Part shown: positions 6,556-33,522 of the stretch, in pieces
Position numbering within the stretch: position 1 is the stretch's first letter
How the letters are laid out: the number at the start of each line of letters is the position of its first letter
Virus record (IMG/VR): IMGVR_UViG_3300023223_000225
Location: 1-35,498 of that record
From: a virus
Length of the DNA: 35,498 nucleotides
Strand: one strand, 5' to 3'
Notes under the pieces: model-generated
Database searches by the model: none
What the model saw: the letters and a program-made list of their open reading frames with translations, nothing else
What the model was told of the DNA's origin: nothing
Program-made: the position numbers and the translations under genes

Positions 6556-7187
6556 GGCGTTGTTACCGTTGCTGTATCTCGCGTATGTTCTTTGCTTACC
6601 TTGAACTTGCCTTCAAGAAGACGCGTAACGAATCCATCTGGGTAAAGCGGGGGATTGTCTGGCGCGATCATTTCAAGATCGTAGCCGGAGGGATCCCAAT
6701 CAAACGTCTCCGTTGTTCCCGGTTGTATCGTCAGACGGATCTCGCCACCAGTTGTACCGAGACGGATTCCGTTATCGTCTGCGTCGATCACAGTCGTCAT
6801 TTCGAATAGCACGACGCTACTGTTCTCGTCGGCGAAGTCGTCACGTATCTGTAGCCGCGCTTCGTACCCTGTTATATCGACGGGTTGACGCGTGCTCAGT
6901 ACTGTATCTCCAATGACGTACGCTGTGTTGGCTAACCACTCCGCAATTGCGTCGTCGCCTTCTTTATCTTCTTCCTCGGCGAGTCTGGTGTTCTCCCACG
7001 TTATGGTGTTGTCCACGACAGTATCGCCGACATCGGGCGGCCAATCTGGAGCAGTCCCACCAGAGTCTCCTGCAACAGTGGCAGTGAAGACACTTGTTGG
7101 GTTAATCCAAACGAGCAGCTTGTCGAAAGTGGCACCTTGGATAAGATCCCAATCTTTCTTGGCTACACAGTCTTTCGATGAGGACAC
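6552..7187 (-). CDS. Baseplate/tail-tip protein with a split binding-module insert
   Basis: 211 aa using the GTG at 7187, which has AGGAG seven bases upstream; a longer reading to TTG 7208 would start before the ribosome site. The backbone (DWDLIQGATFDKLLVW at 12-27, DITGYEARLQIRDD at 104-117, then GGEIRLTIQPGTTETFDW and YPDGFVTRLLEGKFKVSKEH) is a layout I know from a widespread phage protein resembling sugar-binding upper baseplate components. Between the first strand and the DITGYEA strand are about 75 extra residues. These hold pieces of the repeated module in swapped order: the TVAGDSGGTAPDWP...TVVDNTITW half first (36-64), then WLANTAYVIGDTV (84-96). Confidence 0.6.
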   Translation of the reverse strand: MSSSKDCVAKKDWDLIQGATFDKLLVWINPTSVFTATVAGDSGGTAPDWPPDVGDTVVDNTITWENTRLAEEEDKEGDDAIAEWLANTAYVIGDTVLSTRQPVDITGYEARLQIRDDFADENSSVVLFEMTTVIDADDNGIRLGTTGGEIRLTIQPGTTETFDWDPSGYDLEMIAPDNPPLYPDGFVTRLLEGKFKVSKEHTRDTATVTTP

Positions 7188-7214
7188 GCTACTTCTCCTA
7201 ATTTGCAATCGTGT

Positions 7215-10200
7215 TCAAAGATACACGACCTTATACTGATTGTTGCGCTCGATGGTGTGCGTGAACGGATCGTAGGTGCACGATATGTCGTCGCCATAGT
7301 CTCTGTCCTGCAACCAAAATTCTATACCGACTGTCGGTGATCGTTCGTTCAACGTTGCTTTAGTCGGCTCCTCGGCGTCAGGACCGAACACACCAAACTG
7401 CTGCCATGGAAAATCGTTCGGCTCCAGTACACTATCGTATTGAACGTCTTGACCAATCCCCGGATGCCTCTTTCTGCCCACGACTAGCGGACCTACGAGC
7501 TTTGGGCTGTAGATCGTAGTAAGAATGGCGGGTACTGGATCGCCTTCATCTTTTTGCCTTTGTGTTCTTTGTGGACGAAAATCAAATTGATCATCGGTGA
7601 CGGGAGTGATCGGCTCCAGGACTACAGTGCCACCGACCAAACTCGTCAGATGTGGTCCAGGAAACGCACGGATATCAGGATTGAAAGCTCGCCTAAAAGC
7701 AACCAGGAACGCGTCCATATACGTATTATCAATGAACTGAAAGGTCAGGCCGCTACAAAAATCATTATTCCGTCCATTCGGCCCCCAGTCTGCTTTTTGA
7801 AAAGATCCTACCGGGAAATCCGTATTGCCATCATCAAACTTACTGAAGGTCTCGTTGATTTCACCATACAACTCGGCTTCCAAAAAAACTTGTAAAGTCC
7901 GACTGCCTGCCGGATCCCAAGTAAGCGGATAGGTAGAAAAGTTTTCTGTCCAGATATCTTCACCGGATGCCGTGGCTTGAGCAAGGATTGTTATCTCATT
8001 CCGCTCCGTCCCATCGGTTCTGAAGATATACGTCAGCTTTTCATCGACTGTCGATGGGCCTCGATTTATCTGACCGGAATAGACGCCCACGTCGTCATCC
8101 TTCATGCCTAATGGATTATCGGCAAGAGGAAACTCTGTTCTACCAAAACCATTCCAGCAGATATCAATATCGAGATCGCGTTTCGTCTGTTCATAGCGCA
8201 AATCGATGGTGTAGTCCCTGATGGAATTGTCATCCTTGAAATTCGCCCAGACATAAACATCCTTGACATGAAAATCGATATCGAGGTTTTCTGCCTTGTG
8301 TCCTGTTACCCCTCTGCCTATACCGGGAGGACCAGGAGGAGCACCACTGCCCCCGCGACCAAGATGGTACGCAGGGCCGCCAATACTGTCAGCTAGTGCC
8401 ACGGGGCACACTGTTGGTTGTGTAATTGTTTCTACCCAAAATGCACTAGGAGGCCGAGTGTCATCAGTAGATGTATGCAGGAGAACGCACGTATAGCGCA
8501 AATCATCGCCGCCAGTGCCAGTGTTATCTACTACGACACCTGGACTGAATTCAACGGGCGGCACCCACTCGTCTTGAAAGGTACCAGCCACATTGGCTTT
8601 TTCCCAAAAAGTTCTCCAATTCGCGCCCGTTCCAGGTTCCGTAATAGCGGATGATTCATGTGAACGAATAACTTTGAACCGCGCCGTGTTGACATCGAGA
8701 TCAGCATCGGCTGAGAACGCAGGCTCCGTGTACTCGTGTCGAATGATCCAACCTTCAAAGAAGAGTCTATCAGGCACCCAGAAATCAGCGACGGCGACAA
8801 GAAATGGACCCTCCCAGAAATTCGGCCAATCACTACCGGCTCCAGGTTCATTGATTGACTCATCAGCATCGTCAGACTCATGTGTACCTTTGGCGATGTA
8901 GTAATCGAATGCGGCGTCATGTACAGCATCGAAACTACTGTAGTTAGTCTCTTGTTCCCATAATGGAATATCGCCGATAACCATCTCAGGATCATCAAAC
9001 AAGACTTTCCAATTATCCTGCCACGCGCCGCCGACTCCAGGCCGAACAACTGGGTCAGACGTATGCTCAACAGTAACTTCAAATGCAAAACCGTTGTACT
9101 TCACAAAATCTTCATCTGGGAAAGCAGGAGGCGGCTTGTATTCAACAGACGCTTCCCATTCCGTGATGTCACCGTCGTCCGTCTGATCGGGATCCCCGGT
9201 ATGTATGATCCATTGAGTATCCGTGGGGTTTTCTATATCTAATGCAAGAAAATCGTTGCCCTGGCAGTCCGTTCTACCCCAACCGCAAAAAGCAAGATCC
9301 TCTTTGGAGATGAAGCCTAGAGAAATGTGCGGCAGAATCGCACTAACTTCATCCTCAGTACTACCTGGAGGTACAGTCGTCAAGTTCGGCCGACTAAATG
9401 GATTAGTGTCCCTCGCTGCGTAATACGCACTCCAGACACGAAAAGAAACCTCATCGTCCTGATCATTCTCTGTCGTACCTGACGCTGTGACCTGATCCTT
9501 GTATATCGAGAGTTCAACTACAAAAGGATCATCCGGATCATTGGGTGTACCAGAAAGCGTAAAAAGTTCAATCGCATGTATTTGGTGGTGATTAGGAAAC
9601 TGGTTGTCCATGGCGTTAGCCACTGTCTTCCTAAGATTTATAGCAGCGCCTAAAGTAGTTTGATTAAAGAGAGGGTATAAATTCTCTGCCGGTCTACCGA
9701 GAGCAACTAATGCCATCGTCCCATCATTAGAAATATCCAGGATGTATGGATCAAAAATTGTCCCAGTCGAATCAGAAACGCCTGCGGGGCCATCTATCTC
9801 AAAATTGAATGAAGGGAAATCATCGTCAGGCTCGTCTTCGATACCCCAGAATTCATTCAAGTATTTGAACTCACCGAAAGGAGTTGCCACTAACGAACCT
9901 GTGATTCGATCAGGTTCAAAATAAGTAAAAATAGCAGCGATGCTCCATCGAGACTTATCGGGGGCTGTGTATATCCATTCAGCACCAGCAGAATTCAATC
10001 GAGTATAGAATTTCGATATAAATCCGGTTCCATTAACGATGGCTTTGTTGCGCCATTCATTCCCCCGCTCTAGATCGAAATCCGCCAAATTCGGATTGCG
10101 TTCGAACGTTGAACCAGTATCCACTAGCCGCGCGGCCGGAGTCGATTGCCAGTTATCAAACGACCTGTCTATACGAATAGCCGGATCATCAACAAAAGTA

Positions 10201-13551: not shown

Positions 13552-14391
13552 TCAGAACAGTCTCAGGATTCCGTCCGTGTTCCACTTGATGATGAAATCC
13601 GCATCCACGGATCCCACATCCTGGGGCGTGTCGTTAAACAGCACCAGACCTACCAATGGATTGATCCAAAGATCGATAGTGCCGATTTTGTAGATCTGCC
13701 CCCATCGTGCAGTGACCGTTGCTGTCGTGTAGGTGACATCATCACCATCCCACGTCGCACGTCGATTGAGGAAGTTGATGATCGAACTTGTGATGGTTTC
13801 GCCGCCCGGTGTATAGCCAGTACCGGAGGCTTCATCGCCAGCCGGATTCTGTCCGATATCCAACCATGTCACCGTACCGTCCACGACGGTCGATCCATCT
13901 GTCGGGAATACCGGCTCCGTGACATCGGACGTGCCCGCTACAGTTGCCTCGTAGACGTGGCCGTTCACCACGGTTGGGATAACGAAATCACCGAGTAGAT
14001 ACCCGGTTGACAATGTCCACGTCGAGACCGGTGTGACAAAGCCACGATCCTGCGTCTCGCTCAACGGAGGGTTGATACCCAAGTCCAACCAAGTAACGCC
14101 GCCATCGACAATCGTGCCGCCGCCTCCAGGCGTTTCAATGCCAGCCCAGACAGGCTCAACGCCTGAACTGGTACCATCGCCTTGTGCTTCGAATGCATGA
14201 CCGTCTGGTGTCGTCGGCTTGACGATGTCACCGAAGACGTATGCAGTTGTGGGTGCCCAATCGGGCCATGAAAGGTGCGGCTGAAATGTGCTTCCGATGA
14301 GCGCAACATTGATGGTATCGTCATCCAAGTCGATGCGCCCTGCGAGCATGTTCTGCCGCAGTGAATTGTTTGCCGTTACTCTTACCGTCAT
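13552..14391 (-). CDS. Minor tail protein carrying two binding-module inserts
   Basis: 279 aa. The backbone, SLRQNMLAGRIDLDDDTINV at the start and SGTGYTPGGETI (189-200), then ATVTARWGQIYKIG, LVLFNDTPQDVG and FIIKWNTDGILRL at the end, matches a common small phage tail protein of unknown exact role (normally about 130-150 aa). The length difference is explained by two copies of a 55-60-residue module (residues 45-105 and 125-180): W-x3-T-x-Y-x2-G-D-x-V, then an aromatic strand, GTS, and a V-D-G-x-V-T-W end. Both sit in one loop of the backbone. They resemble chitin- or glycan-binding domains. It probably sits at the tail tip and could touch the host surface. Confidence 0.7.
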   Translation of the reverse strand: MTVRVTANNSLRQNMLAGRIDLDDDTINVALIGSTFQPHLSWPDWAPTTAYVFGDIVKPTTPDGHAFEAQGDGTSSGVEPVWAGIETPGGGGTIVDGGVTWLDLGINPPLSETQDRGFVTPVSTWTLSTGYLLGDFVIPTVVNGHVYEATVAGTSDVTEPVFPTDGSTVVDGTVTWLDIGQNPAGDEASGTGYTPGGETITSSIINFLNRRATWDGDDVTYTTATVTARWGQIYKIGTIDLWINPLVGLVLFNDTPQDVGSVDADFIIKWNTDGILRLF

Positions 14392-14400
14392 TGCTCGCTC

Positions 14401-14820
14401 CTAAAGTGTCAAGACGTTACCTTCCGCACCGACCAACACCGACATACCATCAGTCAGAATGTCATCAAAATTTGCAGCGCCGCCACCGCCACCAGTCGCA
14501 AAGTCTGCATACTCTGTAGCAATCACCCGCATGCTTATCAACGTTCCCTTCGACCAAACGAGATTGCCCGCAGGACCATTGACTGCACCACGCGATGTTG
14601 CTGTAAATGTATTGCCAACTGGATTCGTATCAATCAAAAAGATTTCCCACACTGTCTCCAGCGGGAAATCCGAAAACGTCACGTAGTAAAAATCTCCAGC
14701 GCCAAGTACAGGAAACAAAGCCTCGTCGCCTGACGTAACATCGAATACCAGCGTTACATCATCAATGCCGCCCGCATCATCGAGTTCGGTAATGACGTTG
14801 TCTTTGAATAGCCTAGCCAT
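14401..14820 (-). CDS. Tail-tip protein with DUF-like beta domain
   Basis: 139 aa. Pattern: LFKDNVITELDDAGGIDDVT at the start, then a phenylalanine-rich strand, FYYVTFSDFPLETVWEIFLI, and NTFTATSRGAVNGPAGNLVW followed by a Gly-rich C-terminus. The order (a strand with FP, a Y-x-V-T-x-x-D strand, a T-x-x-x-R-G turn, then a W-x-x-G strand) matches a small beta domain that I know from many siphophage tail-tip and fibre genes. Its stop lies nine bases before the next ATG. Function in the family is not known to me. Confidence 0.55.
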   Translation of the reverse strand: MARLFKDNVITELDDAGGIDDVTLVFDVTSGDEALFPVLGAGDFYYVTFSDFPLETVWEIFLIDTNPVGNTFTATSRGAVNGPAGNLVWSKGTLISMRVIATEYADFATGGGGGAANFDDILTDGMSVLVGAEGNVLTL

Positions 14821-15365
14821 CAGATTTGCTCCGCTTCCAACGTCCAGCTTTGATCTTTCGGATGCACATCGACATTTTGACTTGGTTTCTCGGAGAACAC
14901 TTCGAACTCCGGAAAGTACCGAACCTGATAATTGAGCGCACCAGCGACAACCGTCAGTGTCACAGTATCAACAACGATGCTGACGATTGCTGTCTCCTCC
15001 CATGCGCCACGGTTCTTTCCCTCCGGATCCGTATAGGCGAATCCTCTTGGTTCGAAGCCAGCGTCAGTTCGTCGCTCTGCTGGAATTACAATTATGTTTG
15101 AAGTCGATGTCACTGCGCGATCAGCCGCACACTTCATCAACTGCGATACGGAATAGTCAAGCCCTTCCAGGCCAGACGGAATCGTACCTCTTCCTTGAAT
15201 CGTTGTGCCGATCTTTTCCCAGTTCTGTTGTTTGAGTGCAGCACCATTCAACATACGAATAGTCACAAAGCCGCCAAGCGGTTCATACGTCTGCGACAAT
15301 TCGAATGCAGAATGAATCGGAACGATGACCGTACCGAGTTCGAAGGTTGTAAACTGGTCACTCAT
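14820..15365 (-). CDS. Probable distal tail protein
   Basis: 181 aa. A single beta-rich domain (FELGTVIVPIHSAFELSQTY, GGFVTIRMLNGAALKQQNWE, then WTLEAEQI at the end). It lies directly downstream of the tape measure, in the slot where siphophages encode the distal tail or adaptor protein, and it overlaps the tape measure stop as ATGA. The sequence similarity I can see is weak, so the function rests mostly on position. Confidence 0.5.
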   Translation of the reverse strand: MSDQFTTFELGTVIVPIHSAFELSQTYEPLGGFVTIRMLNGAALKQQNWEKIGTTIQGRGTIPSGLEGLDYSVSQLMKCAADRAVTSTSNIIVIPAERRTDAGFEPRGFAYTDPEGKNRGAWEETAIVSIVVDTVTLTVVAGALNYQVRYFPEFEVFSEKPSQNVDVHPKDQSWTLEAEQI

Positions 15366-18300
15366 GCGCCTCTCGCCCCTCGCTTCCTGGCCTCACGCTT
15401 GAACATCCGTATAACCGTCTGTGAGTCCGTTTGCCCCTCGCGTAAGCGCACAACGTCGCCAGAGGGTAGATGGATGTTGACTGGAGCGCCGCCCGCGCCT
15501 GCGGCCTGTATAACCGGCTCAAAGCCGGAGATGCCTCCGACCATCCCACCAACGCCAAACCGGGGAACTGTGAGGCCACCACGCGCCATGCGCTGAAGTC
15601 CCTGGAAAAACGGTGAACCAAAGAATCTGGTCGTCGCAGCATTGATAACAAACTCACCATTGCTGAGCATCGCGGGGATGCTGTCGCTGATGCCCGTGCC
15701 ACGACCGCTTATCAGCCCGCCGCTGGCAATGCCGCGACGACCCTCTAACGCAGCGGAGATCTCTAGGTTGGACGCAGTAAGAGCGGTTACGGCCCCCGTT
15801 AACCCTTCCGTGGCGTCACCCTGAGATTCTATGGTGTCAGCTAACCCTTCCGTGGCCCCGCCCGCTAATCCTATCGCAGTTTCTATACCGGCGAGGGTTT
15901 GTGGGCCAGAAACTCCGGCAGCAACGTCTCCTACATCACCAGCGACTATACCCCCAGTTATATCCCCTCCCTGTACTTGCCGAATGATTTCGGGTATAGC
16001 TTTATTAAACCCTTCGATATTCTTAGCCATCAACTGCAACTGACCATTTACCTCGGCCAACTGTTCGTTGGTAATTTTTGCCGTGTTCTTAAATGTCTCA
16101 AGCGTCGTCTCAGTAGACTCTTTCAGAGATTCATTGATACGCGCCACGTCTACCTGCACATCACCGGATAACGCCTGTACCTGACCGACAAGAGCCTCAA
16201 GATCTCCCGTTGGAACCAGGGGCGTTCCTTCACCGGTAGTCAGCTTGCTCAACTCTGTGAGTTGATTAAACAGATCCGGGATCTGTTGCTTTGCAAGTTC
16301 TTTGAGACCAAGAGCTTCGTCAAGACGACCCTGTTCAGCAAGCTGTTGCGCACGCGCTAAGAAATCTCTGGTACGCGCTTCGATAGCGGCGAACTCAGCT
16401 TCTAACTGTGCACGCTGGTTCTGCTGCTGCTGTTGCTCTATAGCAGCTTGACGTACGGTTAATTCTTCAAGTTCGGCTTTAGTTTTGTTTTTCTCAAAAG
16501 TAAACACGCCCTGTAAGCGGCTATCTTGTTCTTCTTTTTCTATCTCCGTCAGTCGCTCTTCAAGTGCCTTGCGTCGATCTTCGATAGTCTCAAGCTCAGC
16601 CTCCAACGCCTCCGTATCTACCCTTATCTTTAGCTCAAGAGGCCGCTGCGCTAATGCAATATTGAATTCTTCGACACTGTTGATGAGAGCACGATTGAGG
16701 GCGCGAACTTCAGTGACCGTATTGTCAAAGACGGCCTTAGCCGCCTTAGCCAATTCTGACAGAGATTTGATCTGTGCGTCTTGTCCTTCCTTTACTTGGT
16801 CCAATGCTAATTTCTGTCGTACCAAAGAAGCGACATTTGCATTAAACGCATCCTGCAAAACGCGAGCAGACTGAAGCCCCGCGTCTTCAACCTCACCAAG
16901 CGAAGTCTTTGTAGCCGCCAACCCTTCGGTAGTCTTCGCCAAATTGGGTATATGACGATTAAATTCAAACTGTTCGGCGGAAGTCAAACTACTAACAAAA
17001 TCATCAGTCGCCTCTTTCGCAACTCCTGCCCTCGCTGTAAATATATCTACCCTGGTGGATAATTCTATGATTGTTTCCTCTAGCCGTGCTGCTGCAAGCG
17101 TATCGGCCCCACCTAGCTGCTGCACAGAAGATAATTCTGTACGTGTCTCTCCGAGTTTTTGTACGACGCCTGCGAGATCCAGTTCCGCCTGACGCGCATC
17201 TATCTCCAGTACAAACGCGGTTCTAATTCCTTCAGTCAAGCCTTGAGCAATACGTTCGAATATTTCCGCCTGCTCTTCCGCAGCCTTAGAGCCTTCTTCT
17301 GTAAACTCCGTTGCTTGCACTCGCCGACGATTAGCAGCATTAAGCAATTCTTGCCTTTCTCTAATCGTAACATTCAGAGCCTCTTCAGCGGCAGCAACAC
17401 GCTCTTGGGCATCTATGATGTCCTGTGGGTCAATGCCAGTAACATCTCCTATACCTTCGACATCAATGCCCGTCACTGCCAGTTCTTGCAATCGTGCAAG
17501 ATCTGTCTGCGCTGCCGTGAGTGCTTGCTGCGCCGTAACAACAACATCCAACTGCTCAGTAGCAGCCGCCCGGAATCTATTCGCAGCACGAGCAAACACT
17601 TCTGCTTGAGTAGCTGCGGCAGCCGCCAATTCACCGAGTACTTTTATGCGCTCCTGGGCAACAAGAACGGCATCATTCAGTTTCAAAACATCCTTTTCGA
17701 TAATAGAGGCGAAACTTTCATCTGGTAAAGCAAGTGCTTCACTTTCGAGTTTCTTGCGAGCTTGCAAAATTGTCGCAGATGCCTCTTCGAAAGCCACTAC
17801 ATCTGCATCCAACTGCTCTTTAAGATCATCAAGAGTCTTAGCTGTTTCTGTCGAAACAAAACCGAAAAAGTTCAGGAAGTCATTAAAAAGTACTTTGATC
17901 TCATCACCAAATACCGCAAAGAGACCGCCGAGTACCGTCACTACAATACCAACGATTGGAATAAAGCGAAGTAGCACAGCGCCTAAACGACTAAACGCCG
18001 TTAAGATTCCTCCAACAACTTGAGAACGAACAGCACGAAGCCCGATTGCTGCCGACCCAGTAGCTCTGGAGAACTGGAAAAATGTACCGATGAGACCACC
18101 GAGTGGCGCTTGCGCAATAGCTGCTGCTCTACCTATCCCCGTAAGACTAATCAGCGTTTGCGCCAATCGTGCAGTGACGCCAAGAAGCAATCGACCGATT
18201 TGCAATGCAATGATGAGTTTAAGAATCGCAAATAAATTTCGGAACTCGATATTGAGATCCGCGATTATTCTGACCCCCCTAACGAGAATGTCGAAAAAGG

Positions 18301-19426
18301 ATCGTGCGCTCTCACCGATACCACGGAAGAATGCTGTCGCTGCTGGCGTCTTTAAGAATTCTATTAGTTCTCTCGTGAGTGACAATAGACGCGGAATAAA
18401 TTGCTGACCAACCGCTTGTGTCAGAGCAGTGAAATTATTCCTGAGTATGCCAAGCTGTACGGTCAGGGCTTTCGATATGTTTTGATACTCTGTGATCGCC
18501 GACAGCCCGCTATCGAACGAAGTGTTCGCGGTCGTCAAGTTTCGATTCAAGACGGCAAAGCCATTACCCGCATCATTAGTGAGCTTGTTCACCAGAGCAA
18601 AGATACGGCCACCGCCAGCGAGCTTCGTGATCAGATTGGCTTGTACTTCATCCGTCTGCGTGGACAAGAACGATAGAAAGTTTTGAAAACGATCCAACGC
18701 AGGTAATGCTGTGAACTCTTCCAGCGACACACCGATAGCTTCAGCGAACCCCTGCGCATTAGATTGGATGCGTGAGAACACTTTCACGAGAGAGGTACCA
18801 GCAACTTCGGCCGACACACCTAAGTCGATGGCTGTAGCAGCAAGGGCCGCCACTTCCGTTACACTTAATTTTGCCGTATTACCGATACGAGTTACCGTAT
18901 CGATGAGTTCTCCGGCGTTTGCAGTCGTGGTATTGGATAACTCGTTGATTGTCGAGAACAGGTTTTCTACCTGTGCCGTGGGCAATTGGAAGATGTTGAG
19001 CAGCTTCGCCGATGCTCGCGCCGCTGCATCAGTAGATAAGTCCAGAGTCGTAGATGCGCGGGCGACCGATTCGGAGAAAGCCAAAATAGCTTCCGTACCC
19101 TGACGACCGAGACCTAACTGACCGGCTGCCGCCGCGATACCAGCGAGAGATAATGCACTCTGATCAAGATTACGACTGAGGTTAACGAGATCGTTGCCTA
19201 GTTGCTTGATCTCATCATCCGCAAAACCGGTCGTCTTCTGCACATCACGCAATGCGCGGTCAAATCGCGTGGCCTGAACGATGGGGAAAGTAATGGCACC
19301 GAGAGCAGCAATCGTAGCCGACACTGCACCGACGAATCGAATGATACTCGATTCAAGCTGCTTGACCGTAGGTGTGGCGCGGTCAATCGCTGTCAGTGTG
19401 ACTTGTAGGTCTGCTCTAGCTACCAT
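15362..19426 (-). CDS. Tail tape measure protein
   Basis: 1354 aa. The N-terminal third matches TP901-type tape measures: FDRALRDVQKTTGFADDEI, a helical segment rich in Ala/Ser (85-215), and a V-F-S-R-I-Q-S-N-A-Q segment at about 216-225. Residues 395-520 hold hydrophobic stretches (RFIPIVGIVVTVLGGLFAVF). Residues 530-1150 are mostly charged heptad-like helix. The C-terminus has AMLSNGEFVINAATTRFFG, the usual C-terminal motif. Family knowledge: length sets tail length at about 1.5 Angstrom per residue, so about 200 nm here (estimate). It overlaps the frameshift product of the chaperone gene by 11 bases. Confidence 0.9.
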   Translation of the reverse strand: MVARADLQVTLTAIDRATPTVKQLESSIIRFVGAVSATIAALGAITFPIVQATRFDRALRDVQKTTGFADDEIKQLGNDLVNLSRNLDQSALSLAGIAAAAGQLGLGRQGTEAILAFSESVARASTTLDLSTDAAARASAKLLNIFQLPTAQVENLFSTINELSNTTTANAGELIDTVTRIGNTAKLSVTEVAALAATAIDLGVSAEVAGTSLVKVFSRIQSNAQGFAEAIGVSLEEFTALPALDRFQNFLSFLSTQTDEVQANLITKLAGGGRIFALVNKLTNDAGNGFAVLNRNLTTANTSFDSGLSAITEYQNISKALTVQLGILRNNFTALTQAVGQQFIPRLLSLTRELIEFLKTPAATAFFRGIGESARSFFDILVRGVRIIADLNIEFRNLFAILKLIIALQIGRLLLGVTARLAQTLISLTGIGRAAAIAQAPLGGLIGTFFQFSRATGSAAIGLRAVRSQVVGGILTAFSRLGAVLLRFIPIVGIVVTVLGGLFAVFGDEIKVLFNDFLNFFGFVSTETAKTLDDLKEQLDADVVAFEEASATILQARKKLESEALALPDESFASIIEKDVLKLNDAVLVAQERIKVLGELAAAAATQAEVFARAANRFRAAATEQLDVVVTAQQALTAAQTDLARLQELAVTGIDVEGIGDVTGIDPQDIIDAQERVAAAEEALNVTIRERQELLNAANRRRVQATEFTEEGSKAAEEQAEIFERIAQGLTEGIRTAFVLEIDARQAELDLAGVVQKLGETRTELSSVQQLGGADTLAAARLEETIIELSTRVDIFTARAGVAKEATDDFVSSLTSAEQFEFNRHIPNLAKTTEGLAATKTSLGEVEDAGLQSARVLQDAFNANVASLVRQKLALDQVKEGQDAQIKSLSELAKAAKAVFDNTVTEVRALNRALINSVEEFNIALAQRPLELKIRVDTEALEAELETIEDRRKALEERLTEIEKEEQDSRLQGVFTFEKNKTKAELEELTVRQAAIEQQQQQNQRAQLEAEFAAIEARTRDFLARAQQLAEQGRLDEALGLKELAKQQIPDLFNQLTELSKLTTGEGTPLVPTGDLEALVGQVQALSGDVQVDVARINESLKESTETTLETFKNTAKITNEQLAEVNGQLQLMAKNIEGFNKAIPEIIRQVQGGDITGGIVAGDVGDVAAGVSGPQTLAGIETAIGLAGGATEGLADTIESQGDATEGLTGAVTALTASNLEISAALEGRRGIASGGLISGRGTGISDSIPAMLSNGEFVINAATTRFFGSPFFQGLQRMARGGLTVPRFGVGGMVGGISGFEPVIQAAGAGGAPVNIHLPSGDVVRLREGQTDSQTVIRMFKREARKRGARGA

Positions 19427-19778
19427 AGTCGCCGCTTTCTTTCTTCAGTGCGTTCAAATGTTCCTTCAAGCCTTTACCTGTAAACGAGCCAGATATTGCT
19501 GCATTCAGATCAACCAACTCTTGCTGTCGTTTTCTTGACTCCATTCTGCGCGCTGAACTTGTATATTCGTTAAACAAGTTCATTGGGAGATTTTTCGCTT
19601 CCTCTTCCGAGAACCCGTTCCTGACGAGGAGGAGGACTTGGTCGAGGAGATTTTTGTAGATCCGGTCTTTGGAGATAGAGAGTCGTCGTCCCCGGCTGCC
19701 GGGGTGTCGCTTACCGTCAATAGACCCTGGACCAGAGGCAGGATCTTCAGTAAGAAAAAATTTTGATTGAGAAGCCAA
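19416..19778 (-). CDS. Tail assembly chaperone, frameshift (T-like) extension
   Basis: The frame reads 120 aa from a TTG at 19778 that has no convincing ribosome site. It is in the -1 frame relative to the chaperone gene. Slippage at 19757-19763 would attach 113 residues (reading on from FLTEDPASG) to residue 135 of the zero-frame product, giving a fusion of about 248 aa. The C-terminal part is basic and helical (NLFNEYTSSARRMESRKRQQ). The position (just before and overlapping the tape measure gene by 11 bases) is exactly that of lambda gpT. Known role in the family: the GT form loads tail tube subunits and shields the tape measure. Confidence 0.75.
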   Translation of the reverse strand: MASQSKFFLTEDPASGPGSIDGKRHPGSRGRRLSISKDRIYKNLLDQVLLLVRNGFSEEEAKNLPMNLFNEYTSSARRMESRKRQQELVDLNAAISGSFTGKGLKEHLNALKKESGDYGS

Positions 19779-20161
19779 ACCTCCCTGACGATCAAGATAG
19801 CGTCGTCCATCTCCAGTTCTTCCATCTCTTTCTTATCGAGACTGGTCAACATCGCAGCGACTTCAAAAACCTGATCCGCATAATTTGCAAACAGTTGCAA
19901 AATCAATGCAGGGTTTTGTAGATCGATTGCGGGGAGATCGCCTAGCTTCGTGACTTTCAGTTCATTGAAAAAGTCACTGACCAATCGAAGAACACGACTG
20001 ATCTGTAAAACTTTACACCGACGAATCTCGACATCCCTGCCATCAGCGAGTTGAATAAGGACAGGCTCATTCGCGATGACATCGCCTGCTTCTATCGTCG
20101 CCTGTGTCGCCTCACTGTCAGAAGCGGGTTGATTCCGCATCTGTGCTGCTGGTCTGCTCAT
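19580..20161 (-). CDS. Tail assembly chaperone, zero-frame (G-like) product
   Basis: 193 aa. Residues 35-135 are a compact helical domain (VLRLVSDFFNELKVTKLGDL, then LFANYADQVFEVAAMLTSLD), as in many siphophage G-type chaperones. After residue 135 the frame continues as a Ser/Thr/Lys-rich tail (SSSSSGTGSRKRKRKISQ) and stops. That tail is low in complexity, which suits a sequence translated in two frames. The gene lies directly before the tape measure gene, where G/GT genes are always found. The start has a run of purines but no strong ribosome site. Confidence 0.8.
   Translation of the reverse strand: MSRPAAQMRNQPASDSEATQATIEAGDVIANEPVLIQLADGRDVEIRRCKVLQISRVLRLVSDFFNELKVTKLGDLPAIDLQNPALILQLFANYADQVFEVAAMLTSLDKKEMEELEMDDAILIVREVWLLNQNFFLLKILPLVQGLLTVSDTPAAGDDDSLSPKTGSTKISSTKSSSSSGTGSRKRKRKISQ
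19757..19763 (-). promoter_or_regulatory. Programmed -1 ribosomal frameshift site
   Basis: Minus strand, in zero-frame codons: CAA AAT TTT TTC TTA. Two overlapping X-XXY-YYZ heptamers fit: A AAT TTT (19757-19763) and T TTT TTC (19754-19760). Both move the ribosome from the G-like into the T-like frame. I did not prove a downstream stimulatory structure, although a GC-rich stretch with a CCCCGG/CCGGGG-like inverted repeat lies about 50-65 bases downstream (19690-19702). Confidence 0.7.
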
Positions 20162-20191
20162 GTTTCACCTTTACCATGTTGCACCTGAAAA

Positions 20192-20932
20192 TTAGGTTCC
20201 GTCAGAGGTCTGCGAAACCACCAAACCGCCCGTGGTATTTCCTCCTGTATCCTGATTGTGCGGGGCGAAGAGATCGATCTGACCGGCCACGACAGTTTTC
20301 ACACGTCCCTGAAAATTCTTGAAATTGCCGACCTTCGATTGTACGAGAACGTCGTCGCGTGGCTTTACTTGCGTCGTGAAATCACCAACGTCTCGCGTGA
20401 TGATGTTCGGCGGAACCAATGCCATCACTGAACTACTGAGTACTTGGTCAACCACATTGACCGGCTTATTGAGCTTACGTGTCGGGATGGTCAACGGCGC
20501 AAGCTGCGCAACGTTTGAACTGACCGAACAAAACATGAAGCCATCCTCAGTGCATTCTAAAAAGACGCACCAGTTAATACCGAAGAGATTGGTAGTAGGG
20601 AGCGACCAAGCGAAGGGCGAATCACCAGAATCTCTTGGATTCATTTCACTGCCACCGCCAGTGGACAGCGATACATACACACCATCTCCAACGTTGACGC
20701 CATCGTTGCTGCGCTCCGCGTACGCGGCACTAACAGTGTAAGCCTCGCACTTTGTGATCGGTGCTATGGTGATGAGTTCCTGACGAATCTCCCCAACCTG
20801 AAGTAACTCAGTTCGCTGTCCCACTTTCGCGTTTGGCTCAGCGATACTAGCCGCCCAAGTACCGTCCGTTTTAACCAGAACGGTCCACTTCAGTTCCGGA
20901 GATTCCTGGATCCAAAATTTTGGAAGTGTCAT
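20192..20932 (-). CDS. Tail-associated protein, function unknown
   Basis: 246 aa from the ATG at 20932, chosen because AGGAG sits six bases upstream; a TTG at 20953 would start before that site. The sequence starts MTLPKFWIQE and continues through a Gly-rich turn (VYVSLSTGGGSEMNP) and an aromatic strand (FGINWCVFLECTEDGFMFCS) to a Gly/Asn-rich C-terminus. I do not recognise a family. It is between the lectin-like paralogue cluster and the chaperone gene, in the region that usually holds tail tube partners and accessory tail genes. Confidence 0.6.
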   Translation of the reverse strand: MTLPKFWIQESPELKWTVLVKTDGTWAASIAEPNAKVGQRTELLQVGEIRQELITIAPITKCEAYTVSAAYAERSNDGVNVGDGVYVSLSTGGGSEMNPRDSGDSPFAWSLPTTNLFGINWCVFLECTEDGFMFCSVSSNVAQLAPLTIPTRKLNKPVNVVDQVLSSSVMALVPPNIITRDVGDFTTQVKPRDDVLVQSKVGNFKNFQGRVKTVVAGQIDLFAPHNQDTGGNTTGGLVVSQTSDGT

Positions 20933-20953
20933 GATCGTCTCCTGAGACAGCAA

Positions 20954-21706
20954 TCAAGCGTTAGCTCTTTGCACTACCACTACGTTGAAGTCGCTCAATC
21001 CTGCCACAAAAGGCTCATAGACGATGACGTTATTCGCATCTATGATTTCTTTGATCGTGTAGACACCGAGATTGAGTGAACTGTTTGATTCCTCCCAGGC
21101 CGCGAAGGTTATGAAGATACGATCCCTCACCGCTACATCCGCCGTCCAATCGATCAACCCACCTGATTGAATGTGGTACACCGGACCCGGATCTACGAGA
21201 TACGTCAGGGTCTCTTCGTCTCCGATTAGATCCCCGTAGTAGGTACCGCGCGCTATCAACCGTCCTCCGTGCACGGCCCACAAACCAACTGTCGCAGGCC
21301 ATGTGTTATTGCGAAGAGACACAGACCATTCATCAAGCGGAGATGGATTGCTGGATGGCGTGTCGAGAACGAATCGCCAGTGAGTAGCAGTTGCCGGAGG
21401 AGCCAAGAGGCTATCCGTCCATTCGTCTGGGCGAGGATCGCGGCCATTGCCTTGATTGTTGCCGGTACGAGCAATCGTGGCGTGCTCAATATGCGCCGCT
21501 CCCCCGGCCCCAGGCGAAGCCAATACCGTGCTGTAAGGCGCAGACACCGCCGCAGGATTCAAAGGCATCGGAGGAGAGGTCTCCGTAAGACGAGCCAAAC
21601 GAACCGAATTGAGAACACCAGTCTCAGGCGTGATATCAGCACGTAGACTCGACGTGTCTACATTGGGATCGGATTGAAACAATCCTGCTTGTTGCATTAC
21701 TGGCAT
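20954..21706 (-). CDS. Tail-associated protein, function unknown
   Basis: 250 aa, family not recognised. Residues 1-120 are Pro/Ala/Thr-rich and probably loosely folded. Residues 130-250 form a beta domain with ATVGLWAVHGGRLIARGTYY, a VYHIQSGGLIDWT segment, and a C-terminal strand, FNVVVVQRANA. The ATG has AGGAGG seven bases upstream. It follows the four-paralogue cluster with ten bases between genes. It could be another surface-exposed tail protein, but I see no domain that would prove it. Confidence 0.55.
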   Translation of the reverse strand: MPVMQQAGLFQSDPNVDTSSLRADITPETGVLNSVRLARLTETSPPMPLNPAAVSAPYSTVLASPGAGGAAHIEHATIARTGNNQGNGRDPRPDEWTDSLLAPPATATHWRFVLDTPSSNPSPLDEWSVSLRNNTWPATVGLWAVHGGRLIARGTYYGDLIGDEETLTYLVDPGPVYHIQSGGLIDWTADVAVRDRIFITFAAWEESNSSLNLGVYTIKEIIDANNVIVYEPFVAGLSDFNVVVVQRANA

Positions 21707-21718
21707 GATCTTTCCTCC

Positions 21719-22078
21719 TCAGAGCGTTAGCTGATCCACGCCGTAGTACCGGGCGCTTTCAGCGCCACGGAAAAATCCAGGTACATGGAAAACTGTAGGA
21801 CCGGGCTGACTAAGGCTGCCGACGACAGTGATCTCAACAGCGAGTTTCCTGGTGCCAGCCGGTACCGTTGTAAGCACACCGGGAGTAACTGCAAAATTGC
21901 TCCACTTACTCTCGGCTCGCAAACTCGCAAGAGGATCATCAGTAGTGCGTACAGCGAGAGTTTGCCCCTTGAAATTTTCAATCTGAATCTGGTGCGGCTC
22001 ACCAAGCTGCGACATGGCGAGTTCAACGCCAAAGCCGAGTTCTTTTCGGAGTGTGTATGTATGTTGTGGTTGTGACAT
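21719..22078 (-). CDS. Paralogue 4: stand-alone tail-decoration-like domain
   Basis: 119 aa. It consists only of the domain shared by its three upstream neighbours: TYTLRKELGFGVELAMS at the start, a T-T-D-D-P-L-A-S-L-R segment, GTRKLAVEITVVG, and an ARYYGVDQLTL end. Compared with the 444-aa and 352-aa neighbours it stops right after the Y-G-V-D-Q-L motif and has no lectin-like part. It may be the base form, with the others built by adding a C-terminal domain. Ribosome site AGGAG six bases upstream. Confidence 0.7.
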   Translation of the reverse strand: MSQPQHTYTLRKELGFGVELAMSQLGEPHQIQIENFKGQTLAVRTTDDPLASLRAESKWSNFAVTPGVLTTVPAGTRKLAVEITVVGSLSQPGPTVFHVPGFFRGAESARYYGVDQLTL

Positions 22079-22087
22079 CGTGATCTC

Positions 22088-23422
22088 CTACGTGTTCAAT
22101 CCTAGTGAGACACCCAAATCGTAATGCGCTTGAATCTTTGCTTGCGTTAGTGCCGTATGATGCACAGCCACGAAAGCAGCCCCGCCGTGCCACTGTTCCT
22201 CTCCATCAACTCCCGATGCACCTATAGCAAACCCCGCACCGGAAGTTTGAGTGCCGGAACCAGGACTGTAATCCACCGACAGTGCTAACTTTTTCGGTGT
22301 ACCAAACGAACCCGGAGTCGTATCGTCAGCGGCGACAAGTATGTCCATCGCCGTGTCTTGCACCCCGTTGATATAGACTTTGAAGCCAGTTGCGTCTCTC
22401 GTAAACGCAATGTGGAACCATTCATCGAGAGTAGGAGTAAAGCCGCCAGTGAAGACACCGGAGTCGTGGAAACTGAATCGGTTTCCTGTATTCCGCCAAG
22501 TCACTGTCCCATCGACAACCGTCAAATTTAGCGCAGGCCACGTTGGTTCGGCCGCATCGCTGGTGCCTGCAACTTCTGCCTCAAAAACATTTCCCGGCAA
22601 ACCAGGGTCGCTAACCCTATCGCCCTGCGCGTAAACAGTCAGAGCTACCCAGTCTGGTGGTTGCGGTAATGGTGGACCGTCGATCTGGCCTTGCTTTATC
22701 GGGCCGATAGCGTTTGACATCTGAAGTCGCCCGCCATCACTCGACAGCATGAGATTAAATGTCTGACTGCCTGTGCTGCTGACTTTATACCAACCCTCGT
22801 AGGTACCCGAAATGCCCGAATCGAACATGTCGGAATTCTCGGTCCAGTCTTTCCATTCTATGCCGTCATCATTGAACATACCCTTGGAACCCGGCCACGG
22901 CCCGTCGATCTCGGAGGTAATTCCCGGATCCTTCGCAATCATGTCCACGCTGGCATCTGGACCAGTATCAGTGAGAGGAGAGATAGTTCCGTCCTGCATT
23001 TCGAAAAACGAACCGAATGATGCTCCCATGTCCGCGAGAACAAGCGCCGGATAATCAGCAGGATTACCGAACGACGGTATTGTTAATTGATCGACGCCAT
23101 AGAGACGCGCCTGCTCCATGTTAGTGACGCCATCGCTTACAACTACTACCGAAGGTTGATCATTTGCGTCCACTGAAGTTGCTTCAATAGCGACTTTACG
23201 AGTGCCTGCTGGGACATCGAATGAACCAGAGCTTCCCGGCTTGGTGAACTTTGTCCAGTTGGCTATGTCCCGTAAAGTATGCAATGGGTCAGGTGTCGTA
23301 TAGATCTCGACAGTACCGCTATTGTCTGCCCATTCAACAGACGTAGCCGACAAGGGACTCAACGCAGCCTCGACAAAAAAACCAATTTCGCGTGGCGAGT
23401 ACGTGTGTCGTGAAATGCTCAT
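22088..23422 (-). CDS. Paralogue 3: shared domain plus LamG-like lectin with inserted binding module
   Basis: 444 aa. Residues 1-113 are the shared domain ending ARLYGVDQL. Residues 180-440 look like a concanavalin-like (LamG) fold: GISGTYEGWYKVSS, then DEWFHIAFTRDATGFKVYI and NGVQDT, and a final strand that ends with an HTALTQAKIQAHY helix, typical of LamG-like domains. In the middle, at residues 257-313, is a complete copy of the W-x3-T-x-Y-x2-G-D module (DWVALTVYAQGDRV to TVVDGTVTWRNTG). The module interrupts the lectin between two strands. Such domains bind glycans, so this protein may give the tail extra host-surface contacts. Confidence 0.7.
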   Translation of the reverse strand: MSISRHTYSPREIGFFVEAALSPLSATSVEWADNSGTVEIYTTPDPLHTLRDIANWTKFTKPGSSGSFDVPAGTRKVAIEATSVDANDQPSVVVVSDGVTNMEQARLYGVDQLTIPSFGNPADYPALVLADMGASFGSFFEMQDGTISPLTDTGPDASVDMIAKDPGITSEIDGPWPGSKGMFNDDGIEWKDWTENSDMFDSGISGTYEGWYKVSSTGSQTFNLMLSSDGGRLQMSNAIGPIKQGQIDGPPLPQPPDWVALTVYAQGDRVSDPGLPGNVFEAEVAGTSDAAEPTWPALNLTVVDGTVTWRNTGNRFSFHDSGVFTGGFTPTLDEWFHIAFTRDATGFKVYINGVQDTAMDILVAADDTTPGSFGTPKKLALSVDYSPGSGTQTSGAGFAIGASGVDGEEQWHGGAAFVAVHHTALTQAKIQAHYDLGVSLGLNT

Positions 23423-23425
23423 ATC

Positions 23426-24484
23426 CTACACCCAAACAATCCCGAACCTACCGGTCATATAAAGCTCCAATCCAGCCCGCTGATTGGTAGTAAGAGCGGG
23501 TGCCCACATCGCAAGTTCTAGCAATACGCCTGTCCACGGTAACAAGTTCGCATCGCTGTTTGCACCAAGGACGAAATCTGTGTTGTTGGCCGGAAAAAGA
23601 TCTGCCGCCACGTTGGTAAAGTCACCGGTCTCGCTGTAGCTGACAAACTTATTAGTATCCCCCGGCGCAGTTTGGATGGCTCCATTCACGAGTCCAATAG
23701 TGAGACTGCCGCCTGGACCAGTTGAAAAGTCACTACCTGCAATTCGACCGGCCATATGATCAGTTACGTTCTGAGCGAGAGAGAACCTAAATCCGTCCCA
23801 AGCCCACCAATTCTGAGTGAGGCTACCCAAAGTAGGGAAAGCCGCCGTCATCATCGTGTACCCGCCCGAGAAGTCCTGTAATGCGAAATTCTGTACGAGT
23901 CGGTTGTTGCCCGAATGCAAAATGCCTCCGGCTGCGTTCAAACCGGTATCCCATTCGGGATTTTGCGTGGCCCGCGAAGTGAAACCTCCAATCGATCCTT
24001 TGTTGTTGACTCGCCGTACCGGATCGCCATCGACGGCAACCGGAACCGTACCTGCCGTGTCCTGAAAGAGAGTCGAAAGATCCGTGGCGTCATAATGGAT
24101 GAGTGACCCCGATGGAAAAGCAGCCACTATAAGACTGGGCGAATCCAATTGGTCAACACCGTACAATCGTGCCTGTTCCATATTGGTGACACCATCGCTG
24201 ACGACTGTCACCGCAGAGGGATCATTTGTGTCATGAGAAGTCGCTTCAATAGCAACTTTGCGCGTGTCTGCCGGAAGATTGAATGTTCCAGAGCTACCGG
24301 GCTTAGTGAACCTCGTCCAGTTATCTATGTCTCGTAGAGTGTGCAATGGGTCAGGCGTCGTGTAGATCTCAACGACTCCCCCATTGTCACTCCACTCGAC
24401 AGATGAAACAGACAAAGGACTCAACGCGGCTTCAACAAAGAAACCGACTTCGCGAGGCGAATGCGTATGTCTTGAAGTAGTCAC
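23426..24484 (-). CDS. Paralogue 2: shared domain plus lectin-like C-terminus
   Basis: 352 aa from the GTG at 24484. A longer frame starts at GTG 24508, but the inner start has AGGA six bases upstream and gives an N-terminus (TTSRHTHSPREVGFF) that lines up with that of the next paralogue (SISRHTYSPREIGFF). Residues 1-113 are the shared domain, nearly identical to paralogue 3 (GVTNMEQARLYGVDQL). Residues 117-352 look like a LamG or concanavalin-like domain, with a final LLELAMWAPALTTNQRAGLE helix and strand. No inserted binding module is present. Confidence 0.7.
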   Translation of the reverse strand: MTTSRHTHSPREVGFFVEAALSPLSVSSVEWSDNGGVVEIYTTPDPLHTLRDIDNWTRFTKPGSSGTFNLPADTRKVAIEATSHDTNDPSAVTVVSDGVTNMEQARLYGVDQLDSPSLIVAAFPSGSLIHYDATDLSTLFQDTAGTVPVAVDGDPVRRVNNKGSIGGFTSRATQNPEWDTGLNAAGGILHSGNNRLVQNFALQDFSGGYTMMTAAFPTLGSLTQNWWAWDGFRFSLAQNVTDHMAGRIAGSDFSTGPGGSLTIGLVNGAIQTAPGDTNKFVSYSETGDFTNVAADLFPANNTDFVLGANSDANLLPWTGVLLELAMWAPALTTNQRAGLELYMTGRFGIVWV

Positions 24485-24507
24485 GTTGAGTCCTGCCCCA
24501 CTCTCCA

Positions 24508-24963
24508 CTAAGCCTGCGGTACCGCTGGCGAAGCCTGTTGGTTCGGATGATCGGCGCTATTGGACGAACGCTGGTTCTCGACACCATTCACGTTATCCGC
24601 GACGATAGTCAACGAAGCGGGATCGGTCACGCGGTTGTGACCCGTTCCGATTGTGTGAACTTCCGCCATGATAGAACGCACGTCGGAAGCGATGGCGACA
24701 CCACTGGCATCACCGTCCACGCCGGAATCCGTATCCCGGATCTTCGTCCAGTCCGGTCCTGGCTGTACACCAGGGCTAGCACCATCATCTTCATGAACAC
24801 TGGCGAAAACATCGGTGCTCGTGTAGATGTTCATCTGCATGTCGTCACTTTGGCTGTCGGTAGAAAACGTATACCCGGATTTGCCGTTCAGCCGGATAGC
24901 GTTACCGAAGCCAAGATCCCGGAGTACCTGCCGGTTCGTGACATTCGCTGCAATCTTACTCAT
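24508..24963 (-). CDS. Paralogue 1: diverged copy of the shared tail domain
   Basis: 151 aa. It starts MSKIAANVTNRQVLRDLGFG and holds IYTSTDVFASV, PDWTKIRD, VRSIMAEVHTIG and DPASLTIVADNVNGVENQR. These line up in order with IYTTPDPLHTL, NWTRFTK, TRKVAIEAT and the VVSDGVTNMEQAR segment of the next two proteins, so all four genes probably arose by duplication. The YGVDQL end is replaced by a Ser/Asn/Pro-rich tail. AGGAGG lies about eight bases before the ATG. It directly follows the tail tube gene and its terminator-like hairpin. It could be a tail tube decoration protein (inference). Confidence 0.65.
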   Translation of the reverse strand: MSKIAANVTNRQVLRDLGFGNAIRLNGKSGYTFSTDSQSDDMQMNIYTSTDVFASVHEDDGASPGVQPGPDWTKIRDTDSGVDGDASGVAIASDVRSIMAEVHTIGTGHNRVTDPASLTIVADNVNGVENQRSSNSADHPNQQASPAVPQA

Positions 24964-24978
24964 TTCTCAAATCCTCCT

Positions 24979-25016
24979 AAAAAACAGGGCCGCACCCCAG
25001 TTGGAGGAGCGGCCCT
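24979..25016 (-). terminator. Intrinsic terminator after the tail tube gene
   Basis: Minus strand: AGGGCCGC (25009-25016), a 15-base loop, the matching GCGGCCCT (24986-24993), one G, then six T. An eight-base perfect GC-rich stem with a T run, 39 bases past the tube stop, is a textbook intrinsic terminator. Genes downstream are on the same strand with no obvious promoter, so it is probably partial and lowers expression past the tube gene. Confidence 0.85.
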
Positions 25017-25054
25017 AATCGCGTGACACCCCGGCTAGGAGCCGTTACCCCAGA

Positions 25055-26035
25055 TTACACGCTTGAACAGTTGTCCACGTCACCCACTTGACGCCATCTG
25101 AAGAACTGGTCTCCAGTTGGTCGCCCTTCATCGATGAGCATGTTTCCGTTCAACGTAATCTGTGCGATTTCCTCGTTGATGAGCGCGAAGCCCGTCAACG
25201 GATCGAAACTCGCTTTGTAGATCTCGACAAGCACGGGTAAGCCGTCAACCGTGTTCAGCCCCTCGAAACGCAGATACCGTTCCTGACTGAGAACTGTCAG
25301 TGCATCGGTGTTCACGTATCCAAGATGCGCGTAACCGACATCGAGATCGTTACCGCCAAGTACGGGATTACCCCGAAGGATTAACGTACCCCACGGATCA
25401 TCGATATCGAAATCAGTTCCTTCCACGAATGTCGTGTTGCCCTGCATTTCCCATGTGACAGTGGCGTCAACCACTTCCTCACCAATGGTTGTCGGGAAAA
25501 TAGGCTCACCCACATCCGACGTACCGGCGACGATGGCTTTATAGAAGAAGCCATTCGGTGAAATCGGTATGACGGTATCGCCGAGAGCGTAAGCTGTGAG
25601 CGTGGTCCAGGTAGTTGGAGTAACTGCGAGGACCACTGTGTTGGTTCCGTCTGGATCAACGTTCATGTTGTCCAGTGCGTGTCGTGCACCGACTACTTCA
25701 CCATCTGTGCAATCGAAGATCGGGACAATCTCGGAAGCAATCACAGCAGCCGCAATGGTTGAGGATGTTCCCCACATCGCAAGAGCGAGGTTGTGGCTGT
25801 TGATATTTTCCAAGATCATCGTGAACGTACCGTTCTTCTCCTGCACGATGGTCAAATCGATGGCCCGTTGGCCCGTCTTCGCTTCTTTGTGTTCGAACTT
25901 GGTGATATCGATGGATATCTCCAGGCTCGGAACGTTGCAAAGATCGATGAAGTTCTCTGGGCGAGCGGGTGTCACCGATTCGTCGCGTTCCGCGACATAG
26001 ACGATGCCTTGACCGGAGAAGTAATAATTAGCCAT
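25055..26035 (-). CDS. Major tail tube protein with inserted binding module
   Basis: 326 aa. The N-terminal half (YYFSGQGIVYVAERDE, LEISIDITKFEHKEAKTGQR, then an NGTFTMILENINSHNLALAM segment) matches siphophage tail tube proteins. The C-terminal half contains TTFVEGTDFDIDDPWGTLIL and a YGxTLNGN-like end strand, also typical. Between them, residues 143-199 are a copy of the W-x3-T-x-Y-x2-G-D module (TTWTTLTAYALGDTV to a VDATVTWEMQG end). Tube subunits are present in six copies per ring, so this module would be repeated along the whole tail surface. The position between tail terminator and chaperone genes, plus a strong downstream terminator, agrees with a highly expressed tube gene. Confidence 0.8.
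   Translation of the reverse strand: MANYYFSGQGIVYVAERDESVTPARPENFIDLCNVPSLEISIDITKFEHKEAKTGQRAIDLTIVQEKNGTFTMILENINSHNLALAMWGTSSTIAAAVIASEIVPIFDCTDGEVVGARHALDNMNVDPDGTNTVVLAVTPTTWTTLTAYALGDTVIPISPNGFFYKAIVAGTSDVGEPIFPTTIGEEVVDATVTWEMQGNTTFVEGTDFDIDDPWGTLILRGNPVLGGNDLDVGYAHLGYVNTDALTVLSQERYLRFEGLNTVDGLPVLVEIYKASFDPLTGFALINEEIAQITLNGNMLIDEGRPTGDQFFRWRQVGDVDNCSSV
25439..25609 (-). other. Putative carbohydrate-binding module in the tail tube
   Basis: About 57 residues (143-199). Shared pattern of this module family in the window: W-x3-T-x-Y-x2-G-D-x-V, then an aromatic-A strand, GTS-x3-EP-x-(W/F)-P, and a VV-D-x-T-V-T-W end. Related copies lie at 22484-22654, 14077-14259 and 13852-14019, with a rearranged one at about 6890-7082. 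Confidence 0.6.
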
Positions 26036-32514: not shown

Positions 32515-33522
32515 CTACTGAGAGCTTGCGCCCTGGCTGTTCAGCAGAACCGATCCGTATTTACCGTTACCGGAAAGATCGTCTTGATAGTTCAGAGGCG
32601 ATCCCCACCACGCACTACCGTCAACGGTGTGCCAGCAAACTAACCTCGGATCGATGGTGTCTACCGTGAATGAACTGTTGAACCCTCTGCGATGCGTTTT
32701 CGATCCATCCCACAGCCACTTACCAGGACCGCTTATAGTGAAATTTATAGTTGCTGCGGCTTGGCCGCCTGGACGTATGGTGGCTGATTCTTTCCATGAC
32801 GAGAGATCGGCTAAGTCATCATTGAAGTACAGGAAATTTCCGGTGTTCTGGAACATACCGAAAAGATTGCCATTGCCGTCAACGAACATGGCATCGCGAT
32901 CATCCATGCGCAACCATGGTGCCGCCGCATGCGTTAGCACTGAACTGAGAGCAGCAACGCCATCGGCGCTTACCTCGATACCACCAGTCGTTGTATCGAC
33001 ATCCCAAACGACCAATCCGTACACCGGATGGATGAGAAAATCCATCTCGACAGCGGCGTTGTCATGGAATGAAACCCAATTGTCGCCATTATCGGTGGAC
33101 TTCCATAGCTCGTTTTGCGCACCAGTATCTAGGCGTAGGTGCCACCACGCATTGAGGCCGTACGCGAAGTGGGGTACTCCTCTTGTGGGATCCCATCCAG
33201 TGCCTCCAGCAATGCCCGTGGTGCGCGCCCAACTGTCGCCACCATCGGTGCTACGGAATTGTCCATCCGCACCGGCAAGTTCATCGACCAGGATGATGTA
33301 GGTATCTACGCCATCCCAAGATGGCAGGATATAAGTCTCGCCGTTCAACGGCACAAAGTTGGCGAGTTCAATCCATGTGAGGCCGCCGTCATTACTGACT
33401 TTGACGATTACGTTGCCGCCACCAATCCAATCGTCTTGCGCGATGGACAGTCGATGTGTCGCGTCGTAGACACGATCAAAGAGCAGTACGCCCGGTACGT
33501 TAAGCGGCGGCAGAGGCAACAT
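32515..33522 (-). CDS. Asp-box (BNR) beta-propeller protein
   Basis: 335 aa with three Asp-boxes, SNDGGLTW (43-50), STDGGDSW (91-98) and STDNGDNW (142-149), each followed by the strand pattern of a propeller blade. These boxes occur in sialidases and in many non-enzymatic propellers. I see no sialidase Arg triad, so a binding role is more likely. Residues 180-335 hold two more blade-like regions without boxes (WLRMDDRDAMFVDGNGN). The ATG has AGGAG eight bases upstream and overlaps the end of the radical SAM gene by 23 bases. Unusual in a head gene cluster; it may continue the blade pattern that starts in the 110-aa protein. Confidence 0.75.
   Translation of the reverse strand: MLPLPPLNVPGVLLFDRVYDATHRLSIAQDDWIGGGNVIVKVSNDGGLTWIELANFVPLNGETYILPSWDGVDTYIILVDELAGADGQFRSTDGGDSWARTTGIAGGTGWDPTRGVPHFAYGLNAWWHLRLDTGAQNELWKSTDNGDNWVSFHDNAAVEMDFLIHPVYGLVVWDVDTTTGGIEVSADGVAALSSVLTHAAAPWLRMDDRDAMFVDGNGNLFGMFQNTGNFLYFNDDLADLSSWKESATIRPGGQAAATINFTISGPGKWLWDGSKTHRRGFNSSFTVDTIDPRLVCWHTVDGSAWWGSPLNYQDDLSGNGKYGSVLLNSQGASSQ

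Follow-up and report, generated by a model that had tools for sequence, protein, structure and literature searches.

Accessory beta-domains are known from phage virion proteins of several kinds, in the form of the immunoglobulin-like (Ig-like) domains Big_1, Big_2, I-set and FN3. Tail fibre, baseplate, tail tube, major capsid and Hoc proteins are reported to contain such domains, and weak binding to cell-surface glycans has been proposed for them (PMC9022992, PMC8718954). The evolved Dit/Tal proteins of lactic-acid-bacteria phages contain inserted carbohydrate-binding modules (CBMs) that are thought to aid adsorption (PMC8540738), recognition of extracellular polysaccharide of the host has been proposed for the receptor-binding domain of the cyanophage Pam1 tailspike (PMC9382816), and domain shuffling in phage proteins has been treated in general terms (PMC10684548). 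Here we describe a small module encoded several times in the virus record IMGVR_UViG_3300023223_000225, the whole of which (35,498 bases) was analysed and is called the window. The module is a true insertion in the major tail tube protein, in a minor virion protein and in a phrog_1084 protein, since relatives lack it at that place, and its fold is predicted to be like that of CBM5/12. It is shared by many phages and not peculiar to the window genome, and we regard it as a CBM-like counterpart of the phage Ig-like domains.

The module differs from each of the described systems in some respect. Compared with the Ig-like domains it has another fold, is smaller, is inserted in loops rather than placed mainly at C-termini, and exists also as nested and permuted copies. 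With CBM5/12 (PF02839; chitinase A1, 1ed7) it shares the motif of the N-terminal half, W...T-A-Y-x2-G...V...G-x2-Y, whereas the C-terminal half is different (GTS-x3-EP-x-WP ... DGTVTW). The Pam1 receptor-binding domain (7eea) is the nearest solved fold and has AGT...A-x-P-T and DG-x-V-x-W in common with the module, but it is part of a beta-helix tailspike and not a tube insert. The Dit/Tal proteins likewise hold a CBM inside a tail protein; however, theirs are of the CBM4, CBM15 and CBM22 types and lie in tail-tip proteins, so that neither this small module nor the tube is concerned. No description of the module in tail tubes was found in the excerpts of full-text literature on phage CBMs, Ig-like domains, tubes, shuffling, chitin-binding and permutation, a body of text with most subscription journals outside its scope.

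Four straight copies, 59-64 residues long, are encoded on the minus strand of the window. The major tail tube protein (25055-26035, 326 residues, NF052337 tail_tube_6XGR / phrog_807) has one copy at 25436-25615, residues 141-200, within a hairpin of tube domain 2. A LamG-type lectin-like protein of 444 residues (22088-23422) has one at 22481-22657, residues 256-314, and the minor virion protein (13552-14391, phrog_644, 279 residues) has two in tandem, at 14074-14265 (residues 43-106) and 13849-14025 (residues 123-181). The copies share 20 invariant positions in alignment, with pairwise amino acid identities of 41-61%. Detection was made with a profile that was seeded with the window copies and built without them, from copies of other virus records only; it found the tube, LamG, first minor and second minor copies with E-values of 1.7e-25, 4.6e-18, 4.1e-18 and 2.6e-22, respectively. 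These are the same four copies as in the original prediction, where they were placed a few bases tighter. The residue two positions past the EP motif is aromatic, being W in 81%, Y in 10% and F in 9% of 99 copies. No Pfam or NCBIfam profile matched the module above cut-off in the window, while PHROGs holds it within phrog_20658 under the annotation "head decoration".

A fifth copy, in the hairpin loop of a 218-residue phrog_1084 protein (6552-7208, minus strand), appears to be a circular permutation of the module, as judged from sequence and prediction. The same profile matched it in two parts and in reversed order, positions 23-55 at residues 40-72 (E 2.8e-11) followed by positions 1-17 at residues 90-106 (E 0.0037). 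The C-terminal module half thus comes first (residues 39-74, 6987-7094) and the N-terminal half second (residues 90-108, 6885-6941), and the suggestion of a rearranged copy in this protein proved real, at about 6885-7094. For structure prediction a fragment of 114 residues was modelled with an alignment of 12 module rows. The best AlphaFold2 model gave predicted local distance difference test (pLDDT) values of 90-96 in most module blocks, and its strands follow in the order E23-29, E47-50, E53-60, a short helix and E86-88, corresponding to E163-169, E187-190, E193-200 and then E154-156 of the tube. The putative permutation would open the module in the turn that follows the G-D-x-V strand, with a linker of about 15 residues joining the old ends. 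In structure comparison only the C-terminal half of the fragment model superimposed on 7eea (Z 2.8, root mean square deviation (rmsd) 1.6, 39 aligned). None of 10,794 open reading frames (ORFs) from 262 loci, nor any of 50 module ORFs of bacterial genomes, contained a further permuted copy; these samples had been chosen for other reasons. More distant relatives had also been suggested in a 1042-residue protein, where four Trp-rich segments lie at 8418-9161 (minus strand). Their kinship to the module is unproven and we did not accept them as relatives: the module profile gave E 0.75, CBM_5_12 gave 18.0 bits against a cut-off of 26.2, and the profile-profile probability was 14%. Sulfotransferase matches of this protein in one search were taken as chance.

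With a score of 150.3 bits for NF052337 (cut-off 60), the tube is a member of the YSD1/Chi-like tube family. Scans for close relatives of the tube and of the 218-residue protein found none; 93 cultured phage records match the tube, mostly of Pseudomonas and Vibrio phages and all below 60% identity, and the six cultured tubes compared do not have the module segment. A query with a tube alignment that included the window tube collected 81 tube ORFs at 80 loci, and two of them (L098 and L100) contain the module, flanked on both sides by tube sequence. Locus L100 has two adjoining tube genes, of which that at 2434-3264 is plain and that at 3313-4269 contains the module, an arrangement that recalls the gp17.1/gp17.1* pair of SPP1 (PMC8718954, PMC9022992). 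Eleven of the 81 ORFs carry a different insert of about 90 residues (L118, L120, L121, L127, L132-L135, L143, L153 and L154). In a tree of 95 tubes, 15 of them with the module and the set enriched for it by the way in which it was found, the presence of the module needs at least four gains or losses by well-supported branches and five by parsimony; long branches leave the details of this tree unsure. The site is at alignment columns 181-194 in 14 of the 15 tubes and at column 146 in L060.

In phrog_644 the two copies of the window stand at column 66, while all 11 module-bearing relatives have a single copy in another loop, at columns 106-109. Searched with tblastn against cultured phages, the whole minor protein had no match, and the module alone gave weak matches to ten records (E 0.005-9), which include tail, capsid and head-decoration proteins. 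The 218-residue protein matches phrog_1084 over residues 15-213 (E 5.7e-18) with the module as an extra loop. About 70 residues separate QGATF..W from VDLTG in the window protein, but only a few do so in its cultured relatives ACP17 and DC31; in AP1 and two Pseudomonas phages this place is taken up by longer, unrelated loops. Matches at the 80 top-ranking phrog_1084 loci of virus contigs, found with a query that had no insert, extend over 110-130 residues and are too short to contain it. The module had been said to interrupt a recognisable domain in every case. Comparison with relatives confirms this for the tube, minor and 218-residue proteins, and for these three the evidence favours a module of one fold over segments that differ in fold or are normal parts of each family. 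For the LamG protein an interruption is only presumed, because the Laminin_G_3 match covers profile positions 54-110 directly after the module.

An AlphaFold2 model of the tube, based on 28 relatives, had a mean pLDDT of 84.0, with 93-96 in most ten-residue blocks of residues 141-200. As a whole it has the tube fold and matches the tubes of JBD30 (8rk3_f, Z 15.0) and YSD1/Chi (6xgr_A, Z 13.1). Residues 138-202 superimpose on residues 585-643 of the Pam1 tailspike (7eea_B) with Z 9.5 and rmsd 1.5 A over 59 aligned positions, 29% of which are identical. Residues 140-200 also match three chitin-oligosaccharide or chitin deacetylase entries (Z 5.9-6.1, rmsd 1.9-2.0, 48-49 aligned), best the Vibrio chitin-oligosaccharide deacetylase 3wx7 at 332-380 (Z 6.1, rmsd 2.0, 49 aligned), and likewise 4nz1 and 9jeo; the 332-380 stretch of 3wx7 we take to be a CBM12. 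When a 28-row module profile was compared with solved chains, the first two matches were 7eea (E 0.0088) and chitinase A1 1ed7 (E 0.01), and viral coat-protein matches at E 0.015-0.24 were taken as chance. Because of these superpositions and profile matches we call the predicted fold CBM5/12-like. No Ig or FN3 family was among the Pfam matches at E <=1 of ten window proteins.

In virus contigs the module is encoded at no fewer than 368 places, these being among the 598 pattern matches listed. The 80 loci kept comprise 95 copies in 88 ORFs, which together with four window proteins fall into 42 BLAST groups when the module is masked; this is an upper figure, because several groups share a PHROG. 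One protein from each of 30 groups was compared with PHROGs, and in eight of them the module lies within the matched span of another family, namely phrog_212 (major head), phrog_778 (tail assembly), phrog_290 (minor tail, two proteins), phrog_687, phrog_11262, phrog_394 and phrog_2913 (glycoside hydrolase). With one genome per species (84,980 species), the search of bacterial genomes by a single pattern yielded 50 loci, six of them tubes; a tube gene with the module is present, for example, in a cultured environmental Pseudothauera strain (L300). Phrog_20658 was matched by 46 of 48 scanned proteins from these genomes, and others match tail spike, tail assembly, nozzle or capsid families. The module lies within nozzle and capsid proteins and also occurs on lipase proteins. 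A whole-protein CBM_5_12 match at E <=0.001 was obtained for four of the 48 (best 5.6e-9). In a deltaproteobacterial metagenome-assembled genome (L285:3458-4900) the module stands between the D1 and D2 matches of a flagellar hook protein FlgE, whose gene adjoins genes matching the fliK, flgD, fliL, fliM, fliN and fliO families, as in a flagellar operon. Whole modules nested within another were seen once in L071:4452-6260 and twice in L281:1934-4750, at slightly different insertion points. In two further ORFs (L321:2615-5125 and L323:3479-5959) parts of the module are about 200 residues apart, as if split by a large insert.

The reading that we favour, with moderate confidence, is that of an old and promiscuous CBM5/12-like module for surface display, gained by recombination and serving in multivalent, weak glycan binding. 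A beta-domain of about 55-60 residues would fold independently and enter exposed loops of virion proteins by ordinary recombination, without being mobile by itself. With its ends presumably close together it would fit a beta-hairpin without disturbing the host fold, nest in itself and tolerate circular permutation. Domain 2 of the YSD1 tube wraps adjacent subunits on the exterior of the ring (PMC7385642). We infer that the window insert lies in the equivalent domain, because it follows the tube helix and because of the match to 6xgr; the module is then likely to be displayed outward, six copies per ring along the tail, and the other copies would equip the LamG-type, minor and phrog_1084 proteins. 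By binding weakly and at many points to polysaccharides of a surface or matrix, the module may keep virions close to their host until a specific receptor is bound. Glycan binding seems the most likely use because of the analogy to FN3/Ig-like tail domains and the match to the Pam1 tailspike. We hold the structural part, an old promiscuous CBM-like insert facing outward, with good confidence; given that part, glycan binding is likely, and it is mainly this functional part that limits the confidence in the whole.

Several observations weigh against this reading. A Z of 6 to the deacetylase segment falls in a range where unrelated folds also occur, since values below 8 can reflect a common arrangement. 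In the window CBM_5_12 (PF02839) stayed below its cut-off of 26.2, so that by this measure the module copies are not members of that family: scores were 12.5-19.2 bits, with 12.5-14.7 for the module copies, 19.2 for the 1042-residue protein and 18.3 for the whole minor protein. The permuted model was one of five AlphaFold2 models and had a mean pLDDT of 73.5 (46.8-57.8 in the other four), and its alignment had no permuted homologues. The position on the tube exterior follows from homology to YSD1 and not from a modelled ring. Finally, occurrence in a nozzle and in a flagellar hook does not alone indicate adhesion.

The last point belongs to what we consider the strongest, still unlikely, alternative, that the module acts as a brace or spacer which stiffens or shields surface loops without any ligand. 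Tubes, capsids, nozzles and flagellar hooks are all self-assembling shells or filaments, and domain 2 of YSD1 does brace its ring (PMC7385642). However, most of the sampled tube and phrog_1084 relatives manage without the module. LamG, tail spike, lipase and glycoside hydrolase proteins, the typical company of carbohydrate-binding modules, carry it as well, and its closest solved match is a domain proposed to bind polysaccharide.

The original prediction of one module in unrelated virion proteins, with loop insertion, a CBM-like fold and a tube site expected to face outward, agrees with our results, but not its proposal that the module has spread within one genome. Recent duplication from gene to gene in the window genome is improbable. 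The four straight copies are 48-56% identical in DNA, and the same codon is used at 43 of 161 shared residues (six pairs) where 53.0 are expected from window codon usage; any duplication must therefore be old, and recent intragenomic spread was rejected as synonymous positions are saturated. The module was found in two or more genes in eight of 50 records searched whole, picked mostly for containing it; in favour of duplication, the window with four genes exceeds each of the 49 others. The tube and second minor copies are also mutual best matches (61% amino acid identity). A tree of 79 copies over 59 columns does not settle older duplications in the window lineage. Its free topology puts the four copies in four places but is not used as evidence, because the free search missed a better tree: in approximately unbiased (AU) tests, which rejected none of the arrangements, a tree with the four window copies as a single clade (p 0.546) was slightly likelier than the free one, and the other p values were 0.584 for the tube with the second minor copy and 0.312 for all tube copies together. 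That the segments are ordinary inherited parts of their families, as the one site shared by 11 of 11 phrog_644 relatives and the same region in 14 of 15 tubes might suggest, is very improbable in view of the two module-bearing ORFs among 81 tubes, the deviating phrog_644 site of the window and host families that are unrelated.

The large ORFs of the window that have family matches lie on the minus strand, where they make up one virion block, with a structural head protein, the tail tube, the tape measure (15362-19426) and the minor and tip proteins. Between the tube and tape-measure genes are four tandem genes (21719-24963, minus strand) with a common N-terminal domain of about 110 residues. 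Compared with the LamG protein, identity in this domain is 79, 44 and 20%; a LamG match is present in one of the four, and another is longer in its C-terminal part. A gene for a radical-SAM protein (33500-34561, minus strand; phrog_2076, QueE-like, E 2.7e-7) adjoins the block.

Straight, tandem and permuted copies occur side by side in the window. We tentatively suggest, as an idea with somewhat less than an even chance, that the module serves as a portable cassette for display on self-assembling surfaces (phage tails, capsids, nozzles and at least one flagellar hook), whose compact fold and neighbouring ends permit insertion, nesting and natural permutation. The Ig-like domains of phages have long been debated as accessory glycan binders, and their function is unsettled (PMC9022992). 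If the favoured reading is true, a module that is smaller than these domains and unrelated to them, yet occurs in the same settings (tail tube, capsid and tip), would be an independent test of the glycan-binder idea. Its recurrent insertion gives related proteins with and without the module to compare, such as the tube pair of L100, and its sites would form a natural catalogue of tube, capsid and hook loops that accept a foreign domain.

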